Source of the DNA: Sulfurimonas denitrificans DSM 1251
GTDB lineage: Bacteria > Campylobacterota > Campylobacteria > Campylobacterales > Sulfurimonadaceae
Direction: 5' to 3'
NCBI RefSeq assembly: GCF_000012965.1
Contig: NC_007575.1
Location: forward strand, 1,860,001-1,924,000
DNA: 64,000 nucleotides
Part shown: piece by piece, positions 61,538 to 63,669 of the stretch
Layout: each line of letters begins with the position of its first letter
Numbering within the stretch: position 1 is the stretch's first letter
The notes under the pieces: model-generated
Told to the model about the DNA's origin: nothing
Database searches by the model: none
What the model saw: the letters and a program-made list of their open reading frames with translations, nothing else
Made by a program: the position numbers and the translations under genes

Positions 61538-63511
61538 CTAAAATCTTAACTGTAAATTCAATTTAAAATAATTTTTTGTTTTATCCTGAATTATTGTTCC
61601 AAATTTATGTCGTGATGTTGATGGTGTATCTAATTTTATATTTTCAAACAAATAATTTTTTAAGTTTTCCATATTGATTATATGAAACGTAATTAAATCG
61701 CCATTTTCCTTTACAACTATTGTTCCATTACTCGCATAAGAGCCATTCCATTTTTCTCCAGCGAAAAAACCTAATAATATATCAACAAGAAACTTTTTTA
61801 ATTTATTTATCAACATAGCTTTGTCGTCTATATCCAAATGAGTTAAAATATCTGTATAGTCACATAGATAATTTACAATATCAGATAAATTAGAAATTCT
61901 ATTCCCATAAAAAGCCATTAAGAGATAACCAATAATTTCAGGTAAGACATTATCAACCATCTTTAAATTGTAATTCATAGTATCTTTTTCAGCTTTTAAA
62001 TAACGGAATGTGCCACCATTTTTATTTATTGCTACTATTCTATCTCTAAGCTTGGTTGCAGTAGAAATTTGGTTAATTTCACTAATTTTACTATTGTCTA
62101 AACCATCAATCTCAAACATAAAGTTTGTATTACCAGAAGCATTTAATAAAGTCGGCTTACTTCCTAAATATGATTTAATACCAAAACCCTCATTCTCTTT
62201 AACAAATGTGTTATGCTCTATATCTAAAACTATATCTGCCTTTTGAGAACTATTACCGCCTTTTACAATACTAAACCCTAATGCTGTTTGTATTATTTCA
62301 AAATCATTTATTTCAAAAGTGCCACTTCCAGCTTTAATTTGATTAAGAATATTAGTTAATGTTTCATCTGTAATGATACTGCTTATGTCTATTTCTGCTT
62401 CTTCTTTTGTTTTCGTATGTATCGATTTAATTTTAAAATCACTTACTGGGATAAATTCTAAATCTAAATTTTCAGTAGTAATTTTATTGATTTTAAAAAA
62501 ATCTCCCGTAGGGTTTAACTCTTTATCTGAGAGCAATAATTTTTGTTCTAATAATATTTTTATAAAAGCAAATAATTCACTCCATTCACCTTTGTTATTA
62601 GTCTTATTCATTGGCTTGCCTCTTTTGTTAAGATTATTCATATATTCAATTACTTTGCTACCAACTGCTTTAACAGCGTCAATAGCTACACTATTGCCTA
62701 ATTGTTTCATAGAATGAGTAGGACTGACAGGAAAATGGAAATCATCGGGAAAACCCTGAATTTTTTGAGCTTCTTTAAATGACAGTCTTTTAACTTCGCC
62801 ATTAACTAAATAAGCATCCCAGTTTCTTCTATCATCAATATTAGAACCTCTACCACCCACCCGAACAGTAAAGCCTATTTCTCTACTACATTCTCCACCC
62901 CATACATCACTCATATTGAATTTTAAAGGTATTTTAGGCGGAAAATTAAAACCTTTTAAAATATCTTCATCTCTGAAACCTATCATAAATGTTCTGGGTC
63001 TTAATTGTGGCAATCCGTAATCAGAAGCTTTAATAATTTGATGATAAAAAGAGTAGCCTAATTCTTCCGTAAGTATATGCTGAATAGTTTTAAAGGTATT
63101 TCCATTATCGTGATTAACTAAACCTCTCACATTCTCTAAAAAAAATGCTTTTGGTCGTTTAACTTTTATTATTTCTGCTATGTCAAAAAATAAATTACCT
63201 CTTTCTGATTTGTGATTATCATCAAAGCCGTATTTTTTGCCTGCCTGACTAAATGGCTGACAAGGAAAACCAGCACACAATAAATCAAAATCAGGGATTT
63301 CTTCTGGCATAATTGTCTTTATATCTTCGTTAAATAAGCCATTTTCAAATAATTCAGGGGAATATTTTTTAAAATTATATTTATAAGTTTTTCTAGCATA
63401 AATATCAATTTCAGAAGCAAAAACACATTCTCCACCTAACTCATGCATAGCTTGATGAAAACCACCAATACCAGCAAAAAGGTCTATAAAGGTAAATTTC
63501 TTATTATTCAA
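61538..63511 (-). CDS. Fused type II restriction-modification protein: cytosine-5 methyltransferase plus HpaII-family endonuclease
   Basis: The 657-residue chain begins with TTG (GAGGA upstream). Residues 1-300 are a C5-cytosine methyltransferase: DLFAGIGGFHQAMHELGG, the catalytic cysteine in AGFPCQPFSQAG, LENVRG, QLRPRTFMIGF and KQLGNSVAIDA. The target-recognition part, GFTVRVGGRGSNIDDRRNWD, resembles M.HpaII, so CCGG is the likely target. Residues 301-657 match the HpaII endonuclease family (NNKGEWSEL, KSYLGSKPTLLNASGNTNF). ATG at 62611 has GAGG 7 bases before it and would give a free 357-residue endonuclease. The gene is monocistronic; base composition is AT-rich. Confidence 0.85.
   Translation of the reverse strand: MNNKKFTFIDLFAGIGGFHQAMHELGGECVFASEIDIYARKTYKYNFKKYSPELFENGLFNEDIKTIMPEEIPDFDLLCAGFPCQPFSQAGKKYGFDDNHKSERGNLFFDIAEIIKVKRPKAFFLENVRGLVNHDNGNTFKTIQHILTEELGYSFYHQIIKASDYGLPQLRPRTFMIGFRDEDILKGFNFPPKIPLKFNMSDVWGGECSREIGFTVRVGGRGSNIDDRRNWDAYLVNGEVKRLSFKEAQKIQGFPDDFHFPVSPTHSMKQLGNSVAIDAVKAVGSKVIEYMNNLNKRGKPMNKTNNKGEWSELFAFIKILLEQKLLLSDKELNPTGDFFKINKITTENLDLEFIPVSDFKIKSIHTKTKEEAEIDISSIITDETLTNILNQIKAGSGTFEINDFEIIQTALGFSIVKGGNSSQKADIVLDIEHNTFVKENEGFGIKSYLGSKPTLLNASGNTNFMFEIDGLDNSKISEINQISTATKLRDRIVAINKNGGTFRYLKAEKDTMNYNLKMVDNVLPEIIGYLLMAFYGNRISNLSDIVNYLCDYTDILTHLDIDDKAMLINKLKKFLVDILLGFFAGEKWNGSYASNGTIVVKENGDLITFHIINMENLKNYLFENIKLDTPSTSRHKFGTIIQDKTKNYFKLNLQLRF
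62611..62622 (-). promoter_or_regulatory. Internal ribosome binding site and ATG at the methyltransferase-endonuclease junction
   Basis: On the minus strand AAAGAGGCAAGCCA precedes an in-frame ATG at 62611. The GAGG is 7 bases from it, a good Shine-Dalgarno. The downstream 357 codons equal a complete HpaII-type endonuclease. The stop that once may have ended the methyltransferase is missing, so fused and free products are both possible. Confidence 0.55.
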
Positions 63512-63669
63512 AACTATTAATTCCTCATATATTTAAAAAAAGTATTCTACAACAATAAGCATTGTATAAACTTTGCATATATTTAAAGAATGGATAAAAA
63601 ATCAGAACTGGAAATCTAGATGAAATATATCAATTTGTCATATTTTAAACCTCTACTCTCAAATTTACC
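63512..63669. other. Intergenic region between the restriction-modification gene and the Y-family polymerase gene
   Basis: About 160 AT-rich bases. On the minus strand, TAGAAT followed by GAGGAATTAATAGTT and the TTG start forms a plausible promoter and Shine-Dalgarno for the restriction-modification gene. ACAAT-AAGC-ATTGT at 63550-63563 is a small inverted repeat that might be an operator. A 9-codon reading at 63591 seems meaningless. Confidence 0.35.

Follow-up and report, generated by a model that had tools for sequence, protein, structure and literature searches.

The fused gene and its surroundings

On the minus strand of the window, the whole 64,000-nucleotide stretch of DNA analysed here, one uninterrupted frame of 657 codons (61538..63511) opens at a TTG and runs without a stop from a methyltransferase half into a nuclease half. 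We read this frame as a single-chain restriction-modification gene from its open reading frame, its Pfam matches and its fused homologues. Residues 1–300 (62612..63511, minus strand) make up a C5-cytosine methyltransferase domain, recognised by Pfam, by its motifs and by an M.HhaI fold, and residues 301–657 (61541..62611, minus strand) an HpaII-type nuclease domain, recognised by Pfam, by conserved residues and by its predicted model. Drawn more tightly, the methyltransferase takes up residues 1–297 and the nuclease residues 306–657. The initial annotation of this DNA had described a methyltransferase and an HpaII-type endonuclease sharing one frame, and the stop-free frame with both Pfam domains bears this out. 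It had also named a missed stop near codon 300 as the finding that would overturn the fusion. Such a stop is unlikely because none is present in L001, another public record, of 3028 nt, which matches the window at 100% identity from end to end, flanks included, nor in the other fused relatives; assembly error was rejected as an explanation on the same grounds. Transfer of the gene to Gracilibacteria was likewise considered and rejected, as the identity of L001 to the window extends through the flanks over all 3028 nt and the most likely origin of the record is mis-binning of a contig from the same organism. Near relatives of the window sequence carry the label Sulfurimonas.

The TTG start is preceded by a GAGG Shine-Dalgarno (SD) sequence 11 nt upstream (63523..63526, minus strand). 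Beyond it lies a candidate promoter −10 box, TAGAAT (63544..63549, minus strand), which was identified by sequence comparison and is conserved as TAGAAT or TAAAAT in four related loci (L002, L004, L005 and L007); a consensus promoter scan did not pick it up. The gene is flanked by a hemerythrin-like gene on one side and a Y-family polymerase gene on the other, and the complete 2.2-Mb host chromosome contains a single match to RE_HpaII.

The two predicted catalytic halves

The N-terminal half matches the Pfam C5 DNA_methylase family with an E value of 3.6e-75, the best stretch covering residues 6–188 and a second stretch lying in the C-terminal part. Motifs I (DLFAGIGGF), IV (PCQ, with C84) and VI (ENV) are present together with QLRPR and QLGNSV, and motifs VIII and X were found. 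The model of this half superimposes on M.HhaI with a Z score of 22.7 and an rmsd of 3.0 over 223 aligned residues, and the half thus combines the motifs (I, IV, VI, VIII and X) and the HhaI-type fold by which a C5 methyltransferase is recognised. Its target recognition domain (TRD) is short, spanning approximately residues 195–245 (62777–62929 of the window). A short TRD of this kind is shared only with the methyltransferases of two split HpaII systems, L022 and L161, the TRDs of other HpaII partners being longer and different. Because it is unlike that of most HpaII partners, we infer the target of the methyltransferase from the nuclease to which it is joined.

The nuclease half is covered from residue 306 to residue 657 by RE_HpaII (PF09561), over the full 359-position model (1–359), with an E value of 1.4e-116 and a score of 390 bits against a cut-off of 25. 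E309, E312 and D426 are invariant in all 24 RE_HpaII sequences compared, and K446 is kept in 21 of the 24, the exceptions being three solitary homologues with Arg; W310 is likewise invariant. These residues (E309, E312, D426 and K446, the last two in a D-X17-x-I-K arrangement) appear from the alignment to be compatible with a PD-(D/E)XK-type site. The three solitary homologues (L032, L033 and L034) are from Bacteroidota and have no adjacent methyltransferase; the candidate catalytic Lys is replaced by Arg in all of them.

A search of solved structures by sequence returned nothing similar to the nuclease half. The predicted nuclease model is confident (mean pLDDT 89.7, pTM 0.86), and VIA-align places it closest to MspI (Z 6.3) and HinP1I (Z 6.1 and 5.6), with the next row at 2.8; the rmsd is 5.3–5.5 over 177–184 residues, and a Z of about 6 can mean merely a common arrangement. 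Other families do not figure in the VIA-align list, from which nothing should be concluded about them. Foldseek gave no match to the model at E 0.001. MspI, the site of which is likewise CCGG, and HinP1I are thus the best structural matches, although both are separate proteins, show no detected sequence similarity to the nuclease half and reach a Z of just about 6. Both are monomeric enzymes that cleave the two strands in separate steps, as is described for HinP1I (PMC4081073), and if the likeness is real the modelled nuclease may act in the same way.

CCGG as the probable target

CCGG is present at 0.19 of its expected frequency in the window's genome (464 kb of sampled stretches, Markov expectation), the lowest value among the 16 four-base palindromes, and the fused gene itself contains none. 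The four other hosts of intact fusions give ratios of 0.21, 0.06, 0.24 and 0.07, so that depletion to 0.06–0.24 is found in five of five intact-fusion hosts, compared with 0.50–1.23 in six genomes without the fusion, five of them congeners that lack the gene (0.50–1.23) and one the host of a split system (0.77). An exact rank test separates the two groups (p 0.002), with the proviso that the genomes are related and that CCGG is not the only depleted palindrome. Experiments on a split HpaII pair found in a protist mitochondrion have shown that it acts at CCGG, where it methylates the second C (PMC8099122). Because CCGG falls to such low ratios in all five fusion hosts and in none of the six genomes without the fusion, CCGG restriction is probably the best reading of these genomes, the depletion in the hosts being correlational, and the CCGG target implied by the initial annotation is to this extent supported.

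In the window's genome GGCC, GATC and CGCG too are strongly reduced, to 0.23–0.27 of expectation, and several congeners likewise show depletion of GGCC and GATC. The genome also encodes three other C5 methyltransferases; both points tell against the CCGG reading.

Age and maintenance of the fusion

The fusion is present at eight loci, the window and seven further ones of which two are damaged, in several Campylobacterota and one member of the Bacteroidota. The fused homologues include L002 (94% identical overall), L003, L004, L006, L066 and, from a Bacteroidota genome, L009 (56%). A congener carries a copy, L007 (4103–6074), that is fused at the joint, has frameshifts in both halves and adjoins the same polymerase gene as the copy in the window. 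In L005 (4520–6056) the methyltransferase is mostly deleted and the nuclease frame is intact; this nuclease is dead, silent or protected via another methyltransferase.

A tree was built from 35 nuclease domains, L007 being left out as too broken. It groups L005 and L009 with the six fused Campylobacterota rows in a single clade (ultrafast bootstrap/SH-aLRT 100/99) next to split systems. The initial annotation had regarded the fusion as recent, which we do not uphold, because members of this clade come from several families of Campylobacterota and from one Bacteroidota genome and dS between them is about 1. Judged from these comparisons, the joined form is an old type shared between lineages and no recent accident. 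Computed dN/dS is 0.07–0.10 for the methyltransferase and 0.12–0.19 for the nuclease, indicating purifying selection on both halves, and because the ratio is low in each we conclude that both halves are maintained.

That the gene has ceased to restrict and is being lost, as the broken copies L007 (frameshifts in both halves) and L005 (most of the methyltransferase gone) might lead one to expect, is improbable for the window copy, which is intact, has all its motifs and a low dN/dS, and resides in a host in which CCGG is strongly depleted.

Proposed origin from tandem genes in one frame

Separate-gene homologues, which the initial annotation had suggested looking for, do exist, and the split pairs recovered include L022, L035 and L161. 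In the congener system L022 two separate genes share a frame: the methyltransferase stops at a TAA, after which come GAGAGGTATTCTAAT and the ATG of the nuclease. From an arrangement of this kind, loss of the TAA alone would give the present fused layout. The methyltransferase of L022 also has a short TRD and is 62% identical to that of the window, whereas its nuclease is just 30% identical, and for this reason we regard L022 as an illustration of the route and not as a direct ancestor. At L035 the stop of the methyltransferase touches the ATG of the nuclease, again in frame, and the remaining split pairs mostly overlap in different frames. We propose that the fusion arose when the methyltransferase stop codon was lost in an ancestor with such tandem same-frame genes, and that the old start signal of the nuclease would have been left behind at the joint.

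A gene for a Vsr-type mismatch endonuclease lies just upstream of the split system in the congener (L022, 80–481). No Vsr gene was found in the window's genome or in three of the four other genomes searched; one is present in G306.

The candidate start signal at the joint

At the joint the sequence reads AAAAGAGGCAAGCCA-ATG, with GAGG at 62622–62619 and a predicted free nuclease of 357 residues, as the initial annotation had stated for the ATG at 62611. The whole element (AGAGG at 62623–62619 and ATG at 62611–62609; 62609..62623, minus strand) is a candidate internal translation start, a function that we infer. Its SD/anti-SD duplex energy is −5.8 kcal/mol. Over 464 kb of the window's genome, −5 is reached by 11% of the internal ATGs that lie in frame and −6 by 6.5%. 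The SD is therefore by itself only mildly unusual, and the evidence lies in its position and in its recurrence in relatives.

The junction Met is invariant in eight of eight fusions, within a linker that is otherwise variable. An SD with an AGG core stands at the joint in all seven Campylobacterota fusions, including L066 in which the encoded residues are altered; the Bacteroidota fusion L009 lacks one. Six HpaII-type genes were tested for mRNA structure, and in every one the mRNA around the joint is less structured than 81–97% of positions. Nucleotide-level or synonymous constraint at the joint shows no excess (ratios 0.96–1.51), and a consensus scan for an internal promoter gives fewer promoter-like sites than shuffled sequences do.

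These observations bear on two explanations of the joint. One is that the SD and ATG are only left over from a split ancestor and that the fusion protein is the sole product, which we consider about evenly balanced between true and false. The split relatives show the identical arrangement, synonymous constraint is absent at the joint, and an intact Eco47II-type fusion, L178, has lost the ATG with its frame unharmed; on the other hand, a mere remnant sits uneasily with a Met that is kept in every fusion although the adjacent linker has diverged.

The other explanation, that the ATG at 62611 is used regularly and that the ratio of a 75-kDa fusion to a 41-kDa free nuclease sets the strength of restriction, has in our estimation somewhat less than an even chance. 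In its favour are the conserved Met and AGG core, the latter persisting in L066 despite the changed residues, the open mRNA around the joint, the retention of the signal in independent fusions (L159, L060, L176 and L173), and L005, in which the nuclease frame with its internal start has remained open despite deletion of most of the methyltransferase. Against it, the signal is inherited from the split state and may be a relic, the joint lacks synonymous constraint, roughly 7–11% of internal ATGs reach the SD energy seen in the window, L009 has no SD, and L178 has ATA in place of the ATG. Moreover, with TTG as the main start, a strong internal start would tip the balance away from protection and towards cutting. 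Of the suggestion in the initial annotation that two products could still be made, the part that stands is that the internal start could yield free nuclease and that two products may therefore occur; the joint is without additional synonymous constraint. An internal start for the cutter alone is plausible from the sequence.

Fusions of independent origin extend this comparison. On a viral contig, L159 (1–2097) encodes an HpaII-type fusion of 698 aa with a perfect AAGGAGGT and an ATG at its joint; two further C5 methyltransferase genes lie downstream of it, and its 84% relative (L157/L187) is split. A single-sequence query of viral contigs returned no close relatives, and an alignment query returned nine distant relatives, one of them fused. 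Chains joining an m5C methyltransferase to an Eco47II-type nuclease were also observed, in L060 (1444–3276, the same as L177), L173, L176, L178, L179 and L182, all from the same order of bacteria, and in most of them the joint carries an ATG or GTG behind an SD, the intact L178 having ATA where the ATG is expected. L060, L173, L176 and L178 share with the window the M–R order and the in-frame joint, and the first three also the SD-preceded ATG, but their nuclease family is unrelated (PF09553) and they represent separate fusion events. Duplex energies at these joints are −11.2 kcal/mol for the AAGGAGGT of L159, −7.2 for the GAGGT of L060, −7.1 for L176 and −4.0 for L173. Taking the HpaII-type fusions of Campylobacterota and Bacteroidota together with the viral-contig HpaII-type and the Eco47II-type fusions, one might imagine a recurrent nested-gene design, in which independent fusions keep a working nuclease start and one mRNA gives both a one-chain restriction-modification protein and free nuclease in a ratio set by translation; we think this unlikely.

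A probable single-chain enzyme and its relation to known systems

Taking architecture, both activities, origin and balance jointly, we think it likely that the locus encodes a working single-chain CCGG restriction-modification enzyme. In this proposal the N-terminal HhaI-fold methyltransferase would protect by placing 5-methylcytosine at CCGG, the C-terminal HpaII domain would cleave unmethylated CCGG, and the main product would be the full-length chain, with free nuclease from the internal ATG perhaps occurring in minor amount. The two activities would be fixed at 1:1 in each molecule and methylation would block cleavage; probably, too, the nuclease would cleave the two strands separately, in the manner of MspI and HinP1I, and so leave a nick open to sealing and methylation. 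Computation has shown the architecture, its conservation, the purifying selection on each half and the CCGG depletion in the hosts, whereas both activities, the CCGG target, monomeric strand-by-strand cleavage and use of the internal start are proposals. That such a chain can function has a precedent in the engineered Eco29kI R–M fusion, which kept both activities and restricted phage (PMC3039593). RM.Eco29kI resembles the proposed enzyme in joining a Type II M and R into one active protein, but it is laboratory-made, has R before M and uses a GIY-YIG nuclease, whereas the fusion in the window is natural and has M before R.

The known HpaII systems, among them the Acinetobacter and Lactococcus plasmid systems and the active mitochondrial pair of a protist (PMC8099122), have the same PF09561 nuclease, an upstream C5 methyltransferase and CCGG as the expected target. 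Their M and R are separate and usually overlapping genes, in contrast to the one chain of the window with its shorter recognition region, as in split L022 and L161. The trait that defines Type IIC, nuclease and methyltransferase in one polypeptide (PMC4081073), is found here as one conserved ORF with both full domains, and the order M then R occurs likewise in BtgZI. Known Type IIC enzymes mostly pair an N-terminal PD-D/EXK nuclease with an N6-adenine methylase of the gamma class and cut at a distance (PMC4081073), whereas in the window an N-terminal m5C methylase precedes a C-terminal HpaII-kind nuclease that is expected to cut within its palindrome; the usual form is common and not strictly required (PMC4081073). 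The Type IIP trait of a separate methyltransferase protein is absent, as the methyltransferase is fused to the nuclease. By its predicted domains, then, the system is Type IIC-like, an m5C M–R single chain.

Natural regulator–nuclease fusions exist (PMC3850674). A literature search for a natural m5C methyltransferase–nuclease fusion found no paper, although REBASE may already list one. For one-chain enzymes it has been proposed that methylation by monomers comes before cutting, which awaits dimerisation (PMC12707154); this might not apply here because the nuclease, if the structural likeness is real, would be an MspI-like monomer.

Combined restriction-modification enzymes are known chiefly as adenine-methylating and distance-cutting. 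A natural family of long standing that joins an ordinary m5C methyltransferase to an HpaII-type nuclease would reveal that one-protein restriction-modification systems can be reached in a second way, and the question of whether to protect or to cut would become testable within one molecule. Nature supplies split, fused, ATG-lost and decayed forms, a series suited to testing whether the internal start matters.
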